Positions 3,010 through 61,064 of a stretch of DNA of 64,000 nt are shown here, in pieces. How positions within the stretch are numbered: position 1 is the stretch's first letter; each line of letters starts with the position of its first letter. The notes under the pieces were generated by a model that saw only the letters and a list, made by a program, of their open reading frames with translations, was not told the origin of the DNA and made no database searches. Source of the stretch: Leptospiraceae bacterium. GTDB taxonomy: Bacteria > Spirochaetota > Leptospiria > Leptospirales > Leptospiraceae. The stretch spans positions 1-64,000 of the forward strand of contig JAGOHK010000011.1 of assembly GCA_017996175.1 (NCBI GenBank), read 5' to 3'. The translations under genes were made by a program, and so were the position numbers.

Positions 3010-5661
3010 ATGAATTATCCAATCCGACTGTTAATTCTAGGTTTAATATTTTTATTTCTAGGTTTTTGTAAGTCGGAAAAGCCGCAAAAAAATATTCCAA
3101 AAGCGGTTAAGGGCATATTGGATTTATCTCAATGGGATTTTGAAAAGGATGGTGTTATAAATCTCGATGGAGAATGGGAATTTTATTGGAATGAACTTGT
3201 TATTGCCGATGGGTTGCAACCCATCGGCAATAACGACAATACCAAATACATCCCCGTTCCATCGCAATGGCAAAATGAAGGTTATCCGGCGTATGGATAT
3301 GCCACCTATCGTCTGCAGATTTTATTGCCCGTTGTTGTAGGGACAGGTCGCGACCTGTCCCTACAACGACAAATCCCAATGTCCATCGCCATGACGAATG
3401 CGGCAACGGCATACGCAATGTATATCAATGGAAAATTAGCATCAGTAAATGGAAAGGTTGGGAAATCCAAAGAAGAATCGGAACCTTTTCTGCAATATCG
3501 AACATTTTCGATTGATTCGTTTTTAAATAATGAGGTAAATCCCCCCCCCTCCCGCGAAATTGAAATTATAATCCAAGTATCCAATTATCATCATTTTAAA
3601 TCTGGGCTTTGGGATATTATAAAAATTGGTGTTTCTGTTCAGTTAGAACAAAATGCAAAACAAAAATTTGTAATGGATCTTATTTTATTTAGCTCCCTTT
3701 TCATCATGGGATGGTACCATTTTGGATTGTATTTGAATAGACGAAAAGATATGTCTGCTCTCTATTTTGGTATTTTCTGTATTCTTATTGGGTTAAGAAC
3801 CATATGTTTCAATGAGAGAATGATTTTAGATGTATTTCCTTTCTTTCCATTTTTAATAGTACATAAATTAGAATTTCTCAGTTTTTATTATGCTAGCTTT
3901 ATATTTATTCAATTTCTTCGATCTTTATTTCCAGAAGAATTTTCTAAAAGATGGTTTGTAGGCTTTGCAATTATTTTATTGCCTTGTTCTCTATTTGTCA
4001 TTTTTTTTCCAATCAATCTTTATACCAGAGTATTAACATTAGTCCAAATTACTATTCTATTAGAATTTCTTTATGCCATTAAAGTTTTGATTTCTGCAGT
4101 TTTGCATAAACAATTGGGAGCAAAATTATTCCTAGTTGGATTTACATTATTTGGTTTTGCAATAACTAATGATATTTTAAGAACTATGGGAATTTTATTT
4201 AATCCTTATATGACAAGTTATGGACTTTTAACCTTCATCATCTTCCAAGCAACAGTACTTTCTAAAAAATTTGCTGGAGCATTTACGGAATCGGAAAAAT
4301 TAGCGGAAGAACTAAAAATATTTTCAGAAGGTCTAGAAGAAAAAGTAAAAGATAGAACGCATGAAATAGAAAAACAAAAAGAAGAAACCGAAAAGCTAAA
4401 CGAACTCATGAAAAATATAAATTCTGTTTCGAGTCTAACGGACATTATGTCCTTTTTAATGTATTATTTAGAGACAGAATATAAGTTCAATGATTTTTGT
4501 TTGCAAATAAAAGATGATAGCGAACAACAATTAGTAACCTTTTCTTATACGTCTTCCCGAAATACAACTGACGAAAGAGATTACTTTATGAATCAGAAAA
4601 TACTGTATAGAGACTTATCGGGAGTATTCGCTGAAGTCTTTGAAACCAAAAAGCTAGTATTTGTTAGAAAGGAAAATATTACCGAAGATGACATCATAGC
4701 AAAAGATTGGATAGAGAACGGGAGGTTTGATTATCTTTTATTACTACCTCTTGTAATTTATGATGAATTGATTGGAATTTTATTTTTGCATTCCGCTCTA
4801 AAGGAAAGTCCTGTGACAGAAGAAATTCTTTTAAAACTAGAACGATTTTCTGATTTAATTGCAGGCTCTATTTTTAACGCCAAACTTTTGAAAAAAGTAG
4901 AAGAGGCGAAAGAAATTGCGGTCATTTCTCATAGAGAAGCTGAAACAGAAAGAAGTAAATCCGAAAAGCTACTCCTGAATATCCTCCCTAAAGATGTCGC
5001 AGAGGAACTAAAAGAAAAAGGTGTTTCCGAGCCTGTTTTTTTTGAGTCTGTATCTGTATTATTTACTGATTTCAAGGGATTTACGACTATTGCAGAAACT
5101 TTACCGCCACAAAAATTGGTGCAAGAATTGGATCAATGTTTTTCGTATTTTGATTCTCTCATGGAACGTTACGGTTTGGAAAAATTAAAAACGATAGGCG
5201 ATAGCTATATGTGCGCTGGCGGGATTCCAAGAAAAAATACTACCCATGCTGTAGACTGCGTTCTTGCTGCTCTAGAGATTCAATCCATCATGAGACAAAT
5301 GAAAGAACTAAAAGAAATAGCAGGTCAGTCTTATTGGGAGTTACGTCTGGGTATTCACAGTGGATCACTGGTTGCCGGTGTGATTGGAGAAAAGAAATTT
5401 GCCTATGATGTTTGGGGTGATACTGTGAATACTGCAAGTAGAATGGAATCTAGCGGCACGCCAGGTAAGATTAATATAAGTGGTGCGACATACGCTCTCG
5501 TGAAGGATTTCTTCGACTGTGAGTTTCGCGGAAAGGTAAATGCTAAGAACAAAGGCGAGATTGATATGTACTATGTGAATGGATTAAAGATGGAATATTC
5601 CAAAGAAGGAGATAAAAAAACTCCTAACGGAACTTTTTGGAAAGAAGTATATGGTAGGTAG
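3010..5661 (+). CDS. 7TMR-DISM lipoprotein receptor with GAF and class III adenylate cyclase domain
   Basis: Signal receptor predicted to make cyclic AMP. Residues 1-20 are a lipoprotein signal ending in the lipobox LGFC (Cys20). A periplasmic 7TMR-DISM extracellular domain follows to about residue 210, seven membrane helices to about 425, a coiled coil, a GAF domain (about 475-620) and a C-terminal cyclase domain. The cyclase has both metal-binding aspartates (FTDFKGFT, Asp687; KTIGDSYM, Asp731), the adenine-selecting Lys727 and the YDVWGD aspartate, and the Asn/Arg of NTASRMES, so it should be active and ATP-specific. Two perfect palindromes lie inside the extracellular domain (3199-3234, 3334-3367) and keep the frame; a run of nine C at 3541 is also in the gene. 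The first 30 mature residues resemble the kinase at 59.0-61.1 kb. Confidence 0.88.
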   Translation: MNYPIRLLILGLIFLFLGFCKSEKPQKNIPKAVKGILDLSQWDFEKDGVINLDGEWEFYWNELVIADGLQPIGNNDNTKYIPVPSQWQNEGYPAYGYATYRLQILLPVVVGTGRDLSLQRQIPMSIAMTNAATAYAMYINGKLASVNGKVGKSKEESEPFLQYRTFSIDSFLNNEVNPPPSREIEIIIQVSNYHHFKSGLWDIIKIGVSVQLEQNAKQKFVMDLILFSSLFIMGWYHFGLYLNRRKDMSALYFGIFCILIGLRTICFNERMILDVFPFFPFLIVHKLEFLSFYYASFIFIQFLRSLFPEEFSKRWFVGFAIILLPCSLFVIFFPINLYTRVLTLVQITILLEFLYAIKVLISAVLHKQLGAKLFLVGFTLFGFAITNDILRTMGILFNPYMTSYGLLTFIIFQATVLSKKFAGAFTESEKLAEELKIFSEGLEEKVKDRTHEIEKQKEETEKLNELMKNINSVSSLTDIMSFLMYYLETEYKFNDFCLQIKDDSEQQLVTFSYTSSRNTTDERDYFMNQKILYRDLSGVFAEVFETKKLVFVRKENITEDDIIAKDWIENGRFDYLLLLPLVIYDELIGILFLHSALKESPVTEEILLKLERFSDLIAGSIFNAKLLKKVEEAKEIAVISHREAETERSKSEKLLLNILPKDVAEELKEKGVSEPVFFESVSVLFTDFKGFTTIAETLPPQKLVQELDQCFSYFDSLMERYGLEKLKTIGDSYMCAGGIPRKNTTHAVDCVLAALEIQSIMRQMKELKEIAGQSYWELRLGIHSGSLVAGVIGEKKFAYDVWGDTVNTASRMESSGTPGKINISGATYALVKDFFDCEFRGKVNAKNKGEIDMYYVNGLKMEYSKEGDKKTPNGTFWKEVYGR
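3199..3234. repeat. 36-bp perfect palindrome inside a coding sequence
   Basis: Centre at 3216/3217; half-site GTTATTGCCGATGGGTTG is followed by its exact reverse complement. It encodes VIADGLQPIGNN of the cyclase receptor. Compared with the paralogous receptor at 59-61 kb, the interval between the conserved YWN and the following Ser-x-Trp is four residues longer here. The outer flanks (TTGTT on the left, AACGACAA on the right) match those of the palindrome at 3334. Confidence 0.85.
3334..3367. repeat. 34-bp perfect palindrome inside a coding sequence (GTAGGGAC family)
   Basis: Half-site GTTGTAGGGACAGGTCG followed by its reverse complement, centre 3350/3351; with one mismatch the dyad extends over 3331-3370. 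It encodes VVGTGRDLSLQ, a stretch missing in the paralogous receptor, where the interval between ILLP and the conserved I-N motif is ten residues shorter. The core GTAGGGAC recurs in the palindrome at 7169-7230 and, as GTAGAGAC, at 8637 and 9742. Confidence 0.88.
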
Positions 5662-5999: not shown

Positions 6000-7160
6000 A
6001 TGTATCAAGCTTTTACAGAAGATCAAATTCAAATTAGAGATTTAGTGAGAGATTTCACAAGAAAAGAAATTACACCTGTCGCACATATCTACGATGAAAA
6101 AAATGAACATCCTAAAGAACTCATTACCAGAATGCGTAAAGAACTTGGCATCAATGGTCTTACGATTCCCGAAGAATTTGGTGGAATGGGATATGGCTCT
6201 GTAGAACAGTGTCTTATTACGGAAGAAATGAGTCGCGGTTGTCTAGGTATCGCACTTTGTTTTGGTTACACCGGTCTTGGACAACTTCCAATTCTAAAAG
6301 GTGGAACCGATGCACAAAAGAAAAAATGGCTCGAACCAGTGATTGCTGGTGAACATGGAATCGCATTTTGTCTTTCTGAACCGGGCGCTGGTTCTGACGT
6401 TCCGGGTATGAGCACAAAAGCAGAAAAGAAGGGCGACAAATACATCATCAACGGGGCAAAACAATGGATTACCGGTGGTGGAAGTGCTGACGCATATACC
6501 GTATTTGCCTACACAGACAAAAATCGTGGAACTCGTGGTGTTAGCTGCTTCTATGTTCCTCGTAACTCTCCAGGTCTTATCGTAGGAAAAAAAGAAGACA
6601 AACTCGGTATCCGCGCATCTGATACAAGACAAATCATTTTTGAAGACTGTGAAGTTCCAGCAGAGAATTTAATCGGTCGTGAGAACATGGGATTTGTTTA
6701 CGCATTACTCACATTAAACGCTTCTCGTCCTTACGTTGCCGCAATGGGAGTTGGTGTTGGTCAGGCTGCACTTGATTACGCTGCAAAATACGCAAGAGAA
6801 AGAGAACAATTTGGTCAAAAAATTGGAACTTTCCAAGCAGTCCAACATATGTTAGCCGACATGTCTATCACGGTAGAAGTTGGTCGTGAGATTACTTACC
6901 GTGCCGCTCGTATGTCTGACGCAAACGATCCTAACCTAGCAAAATACTCCGCTATCGCTAAAGCATTTACCTCTGAAGGAGCAATGAAATGTGCGTTAGA
7001 CGCAGTGCAAATCTACGGCGGTTATGGATATACAAAAGAATACCCAGTTGAAAAGCTAATGCGTGATGCTAAGATTCTTTGTATCTTTGAAGGAACTACT
7101 CAAATCCAAAAGAACGAAATCGCAGCTTACGTAACTAAAGAAGCAGCTTCCGGAAAATAA
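6000..7160 (+). CDS. Acyl-CoA dehydrogenase
   Basis: FAD-dependent dehydrogenase of 386 residues, the normal length for short- and medium-chain enzymes of beta-oxidation and branched-chain amino-acid breakdown. It introduces the alpha-beta double bond in acyl-CoA and passes electrons to electron-transfer flavoprotein. Visible signatures: CLSEPGAGSDVPGM (first family signature), KQWITGGG, AREREQFGQKIGTFQAVQ (FAD contact), QIYGGYGYTKEYPVEKLMRD and IFEGTTQIQ, in which Glu364 is the catalytic base in the position used by short/medium-chain types. Purine-rich ACAAGGGAAC precedes the ATG. Stands alone; chain length cannot be read from the sequence. Confidence 0.93.
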   Translation: MYQAFTEDQIQIRDLVRDFTRKEITPVAHIYDEKNEHPKELITRMRKELGINGLTIPEEFGGMGYGSVEQCLITEEMSRGCLGIALCFGYTGLGQLPILKGGTDAQKKKWLEPVIAGEHGIAFCLSEPGAGSDVPGMSTKAEKKGDKYIINGAKQWITGGGSADAYTVFAYTDKNRGTRGVSCFYVPRNSPGLIVGKKEDKLGIRASDTRQIIFEDCEVPAENLIGRENMGFVYALLTLNASRPYVAAMGVGVGQAALDYAAKYAREREQFGQKIGTFQAVQHMLADMSITVEVGREITYRAARMSDANDPNLAKYSAIAKAFTSEGAMKCALDAVQIYGGYGYTKEYPVEKLMRDAKILCIFEGTTQIQKNEIAAYVTKEAASGK

Positions 7161-7168
7161 ATATAATG

Positions 7169-7230
7169 CGCGAGAGATGCAGATTGTAGGGACTTGATTA
7201 ATCAAGTCCCTACAATCTGCATCTCTCGCG
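7169..7230. repeat. 62-bp perfect palindrome after the acyl-CoA dehydrogenase
   Basis: Two 31-base arms without a loop or a mismatch, centre 7199/7200; the arm begins CGCGAGAGATGCAGATTGTA and ends GGGACTTGATT. It begins eight bases after the stop codon. It could act as a transcription terminator or RNA-end protector, but no T-run follows; the shared GTAGGGAC core links it to the palindrome inside the cyclase gene. Confidence 0.85.
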
Positions 7231-8636: not shown

Positions 8637-8664
8637 GTAGAGACAGATTTACACCTGTCTCTAC
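8637..8664. repeat. GTAGAGACAG hairpin 3' of hydrolase paralogue 2
   Basis: Ten-base perfect arms GTAGAGACAG / CTGTCTCTAC around an 8-base loop, 21 bases after the stop codon of the minus-strand gene. No T-run, so terminator function is uncertain; belongs to the GTAGRGAC palindrome family. Confidence 0.7.
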
Positions 8665-9503: not shown

Positions 9504-9832
9504 ATTTTTTTTCTCCATTTAAGATTTCGATTCTCGAAACCCGTTAATTCCAATCCTAGAAAAATGATTTCTAACTAGCAATCAAAAAATAATTTAGAGG
9601 AAAAATTCTGAATAAAAAATTCAGTAAAATAAAAAATGAGGCTTATTAAGATTAGCCGTATTTACGAGTTGCAGATTGCAACTACTTTGTTCGATAAAAA
9701 AATAGGCTAATGATTTTTGAAATTGAAAAAAGGATTCACTAGTAGAGACAGGTTTCAAATCTGTCTAAATTTTTTGTTTAAATTTGAAACATGTCTCTAC
9801 AATTTAAAAATGTAAATTTAATTTACTGTATT
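9504..9832. other. Intergenic region with promoter and long GTAGAGACA inverted repeat
   Basis: Contains the candidate promoter of paralogue 2 (9553-9581, minus strand) and, 3' of paralogue 3, an inverted repeat at 9742-9800: 19-base arms beginning GTAGAGACAGGTTTCAAAT, with one mismatch and a loop of about 21 bases. Otherwise AT-rich and empty. Confidence 0.65.
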
Positions 9833-58754: not shown

Positions 58755-59060
58755 AACTGCCACCGATGGACAATGCTGTCAAGTTAAGGGAAACGAAGAA
58801 GAGGTTAACCACGAAGAGCACAGAGAACACGAAGAAAAGAAAGAGATTCTTGATAAAATCCTTCGCGAGCTTCGTGTCCTTCGTGGTGAAAAACTCTTAA
58901 TTGTACAGCATTGACCGATGGACACCTATAAAAGAACGATAAAAAATAATACAGATTCAAATCAAATTATGAATACTCAAGAACTATCGTATTTTTTATC
59001 AGTGCTCTTGGTGTCTACACGTCTGGACTGGGCTCAGTGCAGGTCGGTGGTAATCTTAAA
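58755..59060. repeat. Dispersed TIR-like repeat, copy E, interrupted by a nested element
   Basis: Starts near CTGCCACCGATGGACA and ends GTCGGTGGTAATCTTAAA, same family as copies A-D. Inside are ATAAAAGAACGATAAAA and a second element (58773-58913). The right end supplies the last codons and the stop of the histidine kinase gene on the minus strand. Confidence 0.75.
58773..58913. repeat. Nested element with inverted ends and an 11-bp direct duplication
   Basis: Ends AATGCTGTCAAGTTAAG and CTTAATTGTACAGCATT are imperfect inverted repeats; the interior has ACCACGAAGAGCACAGAG and its inverse TTCGTGTCCTTCGTGGT. ACCGATGGACA occurs on both sides (58762-58772 and 58914-58924), which looks like a target-site duplication made when it entered copy E. 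About 141 bp; no coding capacity. Confidence 0.65.
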
Positions 59061-61064
59061 AGACAGAGGCAAAGTGACAATAAACTCTGTTCCTTTGTCA
59101 TAGTTATCGTTGAGTTGAATTTCACCATTTAGCATTTTGACAATATCTCGACAAAGAGGAAGACCAAGACCAGTGCCAGCTTCACCTGCTGTCCCCCTAA
59201 AGCTAGTTTTAATAACATGCGAAAATAGATTGGCGCGAATTTCTTGTGGTATACCAACTCCTGTATCTTTAACGGATAATATATATTTGTCGTCATTTCG
59301 AATTCTGCTGATAGAAATCATATCTCCCGCATTTGAAAATTTAATAGAATTAGAAACTAGGTTTAAAATGACTTCTTGGAGTAACGCTTCATCTGTTTGT
59401 ATTTGGTCATCCTCTGAGACAAAACTCAGAAGTTGAATTTCTTTTTCTCTGACTCGACCGAGCATAATATTAAAAATCTTATCAATAACTTTCGATGGAT
59501 TGCAGGTCTGAATATTGAGTTGGATGCTTCCAGAATTTGTCTGACTGAATTGTAAAATTTTTTCGGTCATTTCTAGTGAGTGTTCAATTGATTTAATGGC
59601 TAACTCTAAATAGCTTTTAGATAATTCTTCTTCCGACTCGTCGTCTGATTCCATCGAACTTTGGATTAACATTTTCGCATTTCCAATTGGCGATCTGAGA
59701 TCGTGAGATAATAGAGAAATAAATTGATCCTTTAATTCATTTGATTTTACGGCGGCAATTTTTTCGTCCATTATTTCTTTGGTTCTTTCTGCTATTCTAT
59801 TTTCTAGGTCTTCATTGATTTTCTTCAAGTCTGAACTTAAAAGTTCGACATCCTGAAAGGCTTTTACAAATCGAATTAGTAAATAGAGAGATTGGCTGAG
59901 AACAACAAAGATTACCCCGTAATGCGCTATATAGCTAGTATGTAATACTTCTGTCGTATTAAGTATGTCGTTAATTGTGCAAATGAGCATGAAACTAAAT
60001 CCAATCAAAATAATAAAAGCATTTTCTTTCTTTTGATAAACTGCAAATGCAACTATTAGATAGGATATTATTAATTCTAAAATAAATATGGGCAAATAAA
60101 TATTAACCAGATTTGAGTAAAACACAGTTTGAGTAAAAACAGTAACAAAAGAAAATCCAATCCCGATTAAATAGCTGATCGTGATTATCCACTTTCGAAG
60201 TTTCATAAAAAACATATTACTCAAAAATTGTAGTGCAAGAGGCATTACTAAAAAGAACGTTAAATATTCAATAGCCACATAAATTGGATAACCAACCGGG
60301 AGGTAATCTGCTAAAAGTTTTTCTCCGGTGCTTGCAGTTCTTAGAAAAATGCAGATAACTAAAAAAGTAAATTGAATGGAAAGAGTTTCGCTTTTTCGAA
60401 TTAGATATAAACCAATATGGTAAAGAATTACAAAAAATAAAAAACCTAGAATGAAATCATCCCGACTACGAATAGTTTGAACATAAGACAAAAGACCCAA
60501 CTCTGTTCCAAAGTATATGTTATATAAAAATCCTCCTTTTTTATGATGAAAATTAGAAACTTGAACTACAATATCTAAAGTATTCTTCGATGTAGAAAAA
60601 GAAGCGAAAGATGGACGTGTATCTGGAATTGCGTTTGTTATATCTTTTCCTGTTATTCCTATACAATTTAATTCCAAGTCATTGATGAAAACTTTACAGT
60701 TTGTCAATGGCTTCATTCGAATTGCAAATATGGGATAATGTTTATTTTGCGGCAATAGAATTTTTAGTCGATAAGTAGCGAATCCTATACCGGCTAACGT
60801 TTGACCGTCAATAACTTTACCATTCCAAGTGGAAGGTAGATCAATATAGCTGGGTTTGAGAGATGCTATGTCTTCCGGCGAATAAAGTCCATTCCAGTAG
60901 AATTCCCAGTTTCCTTCTAGACTTATTACAGGCTCTTTTTCATAATTCCAGTTTTGTAAATCAAGAATTCCATCTTTAGCTTTGTAGGTAGTGTAATCTC
61001 TTTTGCACCCAGCAAAGAAAAGTAGTGGAACGCAAATCAGGATTAAAATGATTTTATTTTTCAT
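59034..61064 (-). CDS. 7TMR-DISM sensor histidine kinase lipoprotein
   Basis: 676 residues. Lipobox FAGC (Cys20), 7TMR-DISM extracellular domain, seven membrane helices (about 195-395), coiled coil, HisKA with LSHDLRSPIGNAKM and a HATPase domain (NLVSNSIKFS, KDTGVGIPQEI, GTGLGLPLCRDIV). The receptor part resembles that of the cyclase at 3.0 kb (ILDLQNWNYEKEPVISLEG versus ILDLSQWDFEKDGVINLDG), so similar ligands may feed cAMP and phosphorelay pathways. The last residues (KITTDLH) and stop codon are encoded in the repeat copy E. Confidence 0.9.
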   Translation of the reverse strand: MKNKIILILICVPLLFFAGCKRDYTTYKAKDGILDLQNWNYEKEPVISLEGNWEFYWNGLYSPEDIASLKPSYIDLPSTWNGKVIDGQTLAGIGFATYRLKILLPQNKHYPIFAIRMKPLTNCKVFINDLELNCIGITGKDITNAIPDTRPSFASFSTSKNTLDIVVQVSNFHHKKGGFLYNIYFGTELGLLSYVQTIRSRDDFILGFLFFVILYHIGLYLIRKSETLSIQFTFLVICIFLRTASTGEKLLADYLPVGYPIYVAIEYLTFFLVMPLALQFLSNMFFMKLRKWIITISYLIGIGFSFVTVFTQTVFYSNLVNIYLPIFILELIISYLIVAFAVYQKKENAFIILIGFSFMLICTINDILNTTEVLHTSYIAHYGVIFVVLSQSLYLLIRFVKAFQDVELLSSDLKKINEDLENRIAERTKEIMDEKIAAVKSNELKDQFISLLSHDLRSPIGNAKMLIQSSMESDDESEEELSKSYLELAIKSIEHSLEMTEKILQFSQTNSGSIQLNIQTCNPSKVIDKIFNIMLGRVREKEIQLLSFVSEDDQIQTDEALLQEVILNLVSNSIKFSNAGDMISISRIRNDDKYILSVKDTGVGIPQEIRANLFSHVIKTSFRGTAGEAGTGLGLPLCRDIVKMLNGEIQLNDNYDKGTEFIVTLPLSFKITTDLH

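Follow-up and report, generated by a model that had tools for sequence, protein, structure and literature searches.

How two perfect palindromes came to stand in frame within the coding sequence of a membrane receptor is the question raised by the window studied here, a stretch of 64,000 nt of contig C206 of G000, a Leptospirales metagenome-assembled genome of 5.44 Mb in 232 contigs. The gene concerned encodes a lipoprotein-like signal, an extracellular beta-sandwich, a 7TMR-DISM_7TM domain, a GAF domain and an adenylate/guanylate cyclase domain. The original prediction had placed perfect dyads of 36 and 34 bp in frame at 3199-3367, and both their coordinates and their sequences were confirmed (Table 1). 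The two palindromes lie within a single uninterrupted frame (3010-5661) and the 7TMR-DISM and cyclase domains downstream are intact; we infer that the receptor still works. Receptors with a 7TMR-DISM domain form an unusually large paralogous set, with 29 matches in G000 alone. A run of nine C at 3541-3549 of the receptor coding sequence is a possible slippage (phase-variation) site, and an intergenic repeat family with the words CATCGGTGGTAATC and CCGATAAAAGAACG, numbering up to 21 copies in a 0.99-Mb sample, is found at about 2860-2920 of the window.

Table 1. Palindromes, elements and receptor genes in the window
Feature	Position	Strand	Remarks
Receptor gene, 883 aa	3010..5661	+	ORF, translation, Pfam PF00211 (6e-52), PF07695 (2e-22)
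Palindrome 1, 36-bp perfect dyad, GTTATTGCCGATGGGTTG followed by CAACCCATCGGCAATAAC, spacer 0	3199..3234	.	translated VIADGLQPIGNN
Shared core TGGGTTGCAACCCA inside palindrome 1	3210..3223	.	
Palindrome 2, 34-bp perfect dyad, GTTGTAGGGACAGGTCG followed by CGACCTGTCCCTACAAC, spacer 0	3334..3367	.	translated with flank VVVGTGRDLSLQ
Putatively mobile 28-bp element GTAGGGACAGGTCGCGACCTGTCCCTAC inside palindrome 2	3337..3364	.	= GTAGGGAC-AGGTCGCGACCT-GTCCCTAC
62-bp perfect palindrome directly 3' of gene 6000-7160	7169..7230	.	palindrome-2 class, different core
GTAGGGACTTGATTAATCAAGTCCCTAC element within the 62-bp palindrome	7186-7213		flanked by 17 bp of locus-specific inverted sequence
Decayed GTAGAGACAGATTTACACCTGTCTCTAC element, palindrome-2 class	8637..8664	.	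= L119 position 2952
Paralogous receptor, 7TMR-DISM and histidine kinase, without either palindrome	59034..61064	-	served as empty comparison

In an alignment of 48 homologues, the nearest ones (L049-L051, 45-51% identity) lacked both palindromes, and the same palindromes in all distant orthologues were looked for among the homologues and not found. A search for a DNA-level empty site of the window gene gave only paralogue or low-identity alignments. Compared with the nearest homologues, loop 1 is longer by about 4 residues, as had been anticipated, and loop 2 by about 11 rather than the anticipated 10 or so. Judged from this alignment, palindrome 2 behaves as an insertion, the gain in loop 2 fitting 28-34 bp, whereas palindrome 1 with its 36 bp is not a simple gain of 12 residues. 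An AlphaFold2 model covering the extracellular domain only (mean pLDDT 90, the palindrome loops being among its less confident parts) places palindrome 1 at residues 40-51, between beta strands 30-36 and 55-59, and palindrome 2 at residues 85-95 (pLDDT ~70), between beta strands 72-82 and 100-104. Both are thus located in surface loops of the model. The modelled fold resembles parts of GH2 glycosidases, which we take to be the sugar-binding-type beta-sandwich domain of these enzymes.

A strong RNA hairpin is predicted from either palindrome sequence and the frame has been kept, as would suit a selected feature of the receptor gene, for instance an mRNA regulatory hairpin or a functional peptide loop. 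However, homologues of the same architecture do without the palindromes and the element also occurs in unrelated proteins and between genes, so that we consider selection at this locus a very improbable origin.

Palindromes of this kind are present in G000 beyond chance, as judged by second-order Markov controls. In 0.35 Mb of this genome, 17 inverted repeats (arm of at least 11, spacer of at most 8) were detected, compared with 1 in the control. A survey sample of 0.99 Mb, about 18% of the bases of G000, contained 41 inverted repeats with a spacer of at most 4 (control: 4) and 20 spacer-free perfect palindromes with an arm of at least 11 (control: 1). Where sampling had not been guided by palindromes, copies were mostly intergenic and coding ones formed a minority.

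The element in palindrome 2 belongs to the class GTAGGGRC-N12-GYCCCTAC, present in 40 of the 296 Spirochaetota genomes that were scanned with the pattern GTAGGGRC-N{4,24}-GYCCCTAC (reversed-pattern control, 0-3). Matches were overwhelmingly 28-29 bp long, with palindromic, genome-specific cores, and reached up to 119 copies per genome. GTAGGGACAGGTCGCGACCTGTCCCTAC itself was found at three places in G000, one of them with a single mismatch; exact copies lie at C199:27244, in G002 and in G003, and a RAYT gene of G040 contains one in frame. The element is open in two of its three reading frames, and the translation VGTGRDLSL is shared by the window receptor, the large multidomain genes L094 and L095, two genes of G003 and the G040 transposase. 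In L095, which encodes an ATPase, the protein is 13 residues longer at the element than its five paralogues. The proposal that dispersed palindromes had entered genes and kept the frame is thus supported, by homologues that lack them, by further copies in frame elsewhere and by the surface-loop position of both palindromes. Four metagenomic viral contigs carry the exact 28-mer with little flank palindromy, a plasmid search with the palindrome-2 element gave no match, and a literature search on the element DNA or its encoded peptides found nothing relevant.

A second class is defined by the arms CAGTGGGT...ACCCACTG, with the members L083, L129 and L142 and, with changes, L097. On sequence grounds palindrome 1 can be placed in this class as a divergent member, it and its relatives having only a 12-14 bp core in common. 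The view that the outer flanks TTGTT/AACGACAA mark a single class with different cores was not supported, since the two palindromes belong to separate classes that differ in both outer arms and cores, and the sequence outside is locus-specific. The common flanks are nevertheless real, comprising 10 independent matching bases in a fixed register (about 1e-6 if random, by our own estimate). ACGACAA also lies close to two further GTAG elements of this genus and is absent from most copies; with five distinct cases among 119 palindromes, the idea of AACGACAA as a target motif is a weak one.

The receptor loop that holds palindrome 1 is occupied repeatedly. In the 5.44-Mb genome TGGGTTGCAACCCA occurs only twice, both times in this loop, namely in the window receptor and in a paralogue on C93, and the outer arms of the two copies are unrelated but still perfect. 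The C93 paralogue carries another perfect palindrome there, CTGTACAGTGGGTTGCAACCCACTGTACAG, of which the copy in the G002 orthologue has decayed. A near-perfect GTAAGGGCTGAATATATTCAGCCCCTAC is located in the same loop of the C193 paralogue and of its G002 orthologue. Furthermore, a different in-frame inverted-repeat element, TTCGACTCCGCTCA...TCGAAGGGAA, occupies this loop in two distant organisms, in L078 (the C112 paralogue) and in L062, a member of another receptor family in G043.

Y1/RAYT-like genes were collected with Pfam PF01797, NCBIfam NF047646 (curated RAYT cut-off >80 bits) and a G040 protein as query. PF01797 alone misses many such transposases, that of G040 included, and its absence was not counted as evidence; most RAYT-like genes stayed under the NF047646 cut-off with clear E-values. 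Of 27 Y1/RAYT loci, 16 had a perfect palindrome at least 24 bp long, compared with 5 of 274 control segments. Among 22 complete genes, 11 contain an in-frame palindrome in the HUH-to-tyrosine linker, directly behind the HUH motif; these palindromes score 11-26, compared with 9 for the best of 660 shuffled linkers, and five further linkers include weaker, apparently decayed palindromes. The G040 gene holds the exact palindrome-2 element, and a RAYT gene of G001 holds GTAAGGACTTGATTAATCAAGTCCTTAC (the TTGATTAATCAA element), which is inserted in a G000 gene as well. Two RAYT-like genes with internal palindromes were also found in G032, a finished genome of two contigs (chromosome 4,384,015 bp). 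In G000 a transposase on C177 scores 88.5 bits, above the curated cut-off, and has perfect palindromes on either side, while the 12-bp core of palindrome 1 lies just downstream of a Y1_Tnp/RAYT-like gene on C65. No RAYT with the palindrome-2 core GGTCGCGACC was found in G000, and several palindrome-rich but incomplete genomes, among them G059 (119 copies) and G062, gave no RAYT match. We consider it probable that both palindromes are solitary, non-autonomous remnants left by transposase systems of the RAYT type (HUH, single-tyrosine, IS200/IS605-related), the element having presumably been moved by such a transposase.

The element class is a variant of the REP/RAYT systems. With GTAG REP/REPIN-RAYT it has in common the GTAG end, a palindrome of 20-40 bp, dispersed copies, a family-specific core and RAYT-like neighbours (PMC2817692, PMC3733652, PMC8266576), and intragenic copies have been reported for REPs also (PMC3733652, PMC2817692). 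Palindrome 2 has the terminal GTAG (GTAGGGAC...GTCCCTAC), whereas palindrome 1 lacks it. In GTAG REPs the tetranucleotide is by definition unpaired beside the stem, with a loop of 2-20 nt (PMC3733652), whereas here it pairs with a terminal CTAC in a perfect, loopless palindrome with spacer 0. Further differences from REP/RAYT systems are the copies inside the transposase gene itself and the locus-specific inverted flanks; a cognate RAYT with the same repeat is known from G040, next to the 16 of 27 loci overall. Compared with high-copy extragenic REPs, the present core has just three copies in G000, the class reaching its maximum of 119 in other genomes. Earlier work has described REP/RAYT systems, REPs within genes and TIRs that are self-complementary (PMC3733652, PMC2817692). 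In the running text of the papers available, descriptions of loopless, fully paired GTAG elements and of in-frame palindromes inside a transposase gene were not found; nor were inverted flank copies in REPs, which were also sought in work on palindromes, on inverted duplication and on template switching.

The nearest relatives are RAYT/REP and not the Rickettsia palindromic elements, to which a likeness had originally been proposed; it holds only in idea, as size, CGTC tag and the absence of a transposase all differ. Rickettsia palindromic elements are generally longer, and neither palindrome starts or ends with CGTC/GACG or is related in sequence to them or to CGTC REPs. Common to these and the present elements are the palindromic nature and the in-frame occurrence in unrelated proteins at tolerant positions (PMC3733652). 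The Rickettsia elements have no dedicated transposase (PMC3733652), whereas the palindrome class described here is associated with RAYT-like genes. TIRtrons and TIR-associated tyrosine transposases resemble the arrangement at C177 in that HUH enzymes lie between repeats which are self-complementary in part or throughout and some of which form dispersed families (PMC3733652); in contrast, the palindrome-2 class begins with GTAG and has copies also within the transposase gene. Perfect palindromes in protein-coding genes are likewise found in Nematomorpha mitochondria, but these are organellar and up to 284 bp long (PMC6649704).

Bases beyond the 28-29 bp element are often palindromic too, and this additional sequence is usually unique to the locus. 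For 89 elements the inverted flank averaged 3.35 bp, compared with 0.97 bp when flanks were swapped within the genome, and it reached at least 5 bp in 33% of the elements (swapped control, 1.1%). Means were 4.8 bp against 0.6 bp in the finished genome G032 and 9.9 bp against 1.2 bp in G131; the effect is not universal, as G062 and G070 have almost no inverted flanks. Palindromes are able to fold back in assembly graphs, which in a genome of 232 contigs raises the suspicion of a short-read metagenome assembly artefact. The presence of inverted flanks in the finished genome as well excludes this explanation for the flanks, and with the same class in that genome and frames that continue correctly on both sides of the palindromes, an artefactual origin is scarcely credible.

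Locus-specific inverted flanks are the product expected of fold-back copying, and this also suits a scenario in which the palindromes were made in place by replication template switching, a short inverted repeat of chance or inserted origin being extended and its arms homogenised, one serving as template for the other, without any transposase. Arms that are perfectly complementary even though cores and arms vary between copies, the small net length gain of palindrome 1 and the unrelated yet perfect outer arms around TGGGTTGCAACCCA in the window and C93 agree with such a process. Nevertheless, the recurrence of one and the same 28-mer at unrelated sites and across genomes, together with the strong transposase link, requires a spreading step, and as the origin of the elements we regard template switching as rather unlikely; its contribution is probably to the flanks and not to the element. 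Alternatively, the elements might insert at the tips of pre-existing hairpins, palindromic flanks then reflecting target choice. In one G032 family most sites have 4-11 bp of palindromic flank, which would fit this idea, as would the finding that some flanks in G131 and G059 are themselves repeated. Perfect spacer-free dyads with arms of 9-17 bp are very rare as targets, yet they are found at many copies, several of them coding, and we judge hairpin targeting unlikely.

The inverted flank copies suggest fold-back priming, a process that has been discussed in connection with inverted duplications (PMC10622511). Under the reading that we prefer, relics of RAYT-type systems, the transposase would recognise the single-stranded hairpin of the element and cut near the GTAG/CTAC foot; the TnpA-REP of E. 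coli cleaves single-stranded REP at CT beside the hairpin in a GTAG-dependent manner (PMC8266576). Copying or transfer would then bring the element to a new site, where its 3' foot, paired with its own 5' arm, could prime synthesis across the target flank on the 5' side. This priming would duplicate 0-17 bp of flank in inverted orientation and, after rejoining, yield the product L-P-rc(L)-R. Most copies would settle between genes, and a few, landing where a surface loop tolerates them and the frame stays open, would add a new peptide. The mechanisms of REP dissemination are poorly understood (PMC8266576), and from inverted flank copies the chemistry of insertion may be read off directly. Where a transposase gene contains a palindrome of its own, enzyme and substrate are matched and need not be guessed. 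In addition, tiny mobile palindromes may give sensor proteins new surface loops, the same receptor loop having been struck several times. It is possible, though we would not go so far as to call it probable, that the elements constitute a distinct Spirochaetota REP-like branch in which the linker of an HUH transposase contains, in frame behind the HUH motif, the enzyme's own perfect palindrome of 28 bp; the enzyme would spread this element solo and leave an inverted target copy at each new site by fold-back priming. If true, insertion would leave a signature of a kind not seen before and would create in-frame protein loops as well.

Several additional palindromes were observed in the course of this analysis. 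Two decayed GTAGAGAC-type elements lie between genes of the window (8637-8664 and 9735-9807). On C177 a 40-bp tandem array (L143/L121) ends at a perfect palindrome adjoining the RAYT gene, and a gene of 1639 aa next to this array contains two further in-frame palindromes. In G032 an IS200-type Y1 transposase (L341) is situated amid GCCACCGAATTAATTCGGTGGC palindromes, which have locus-specific inverted flanks too.
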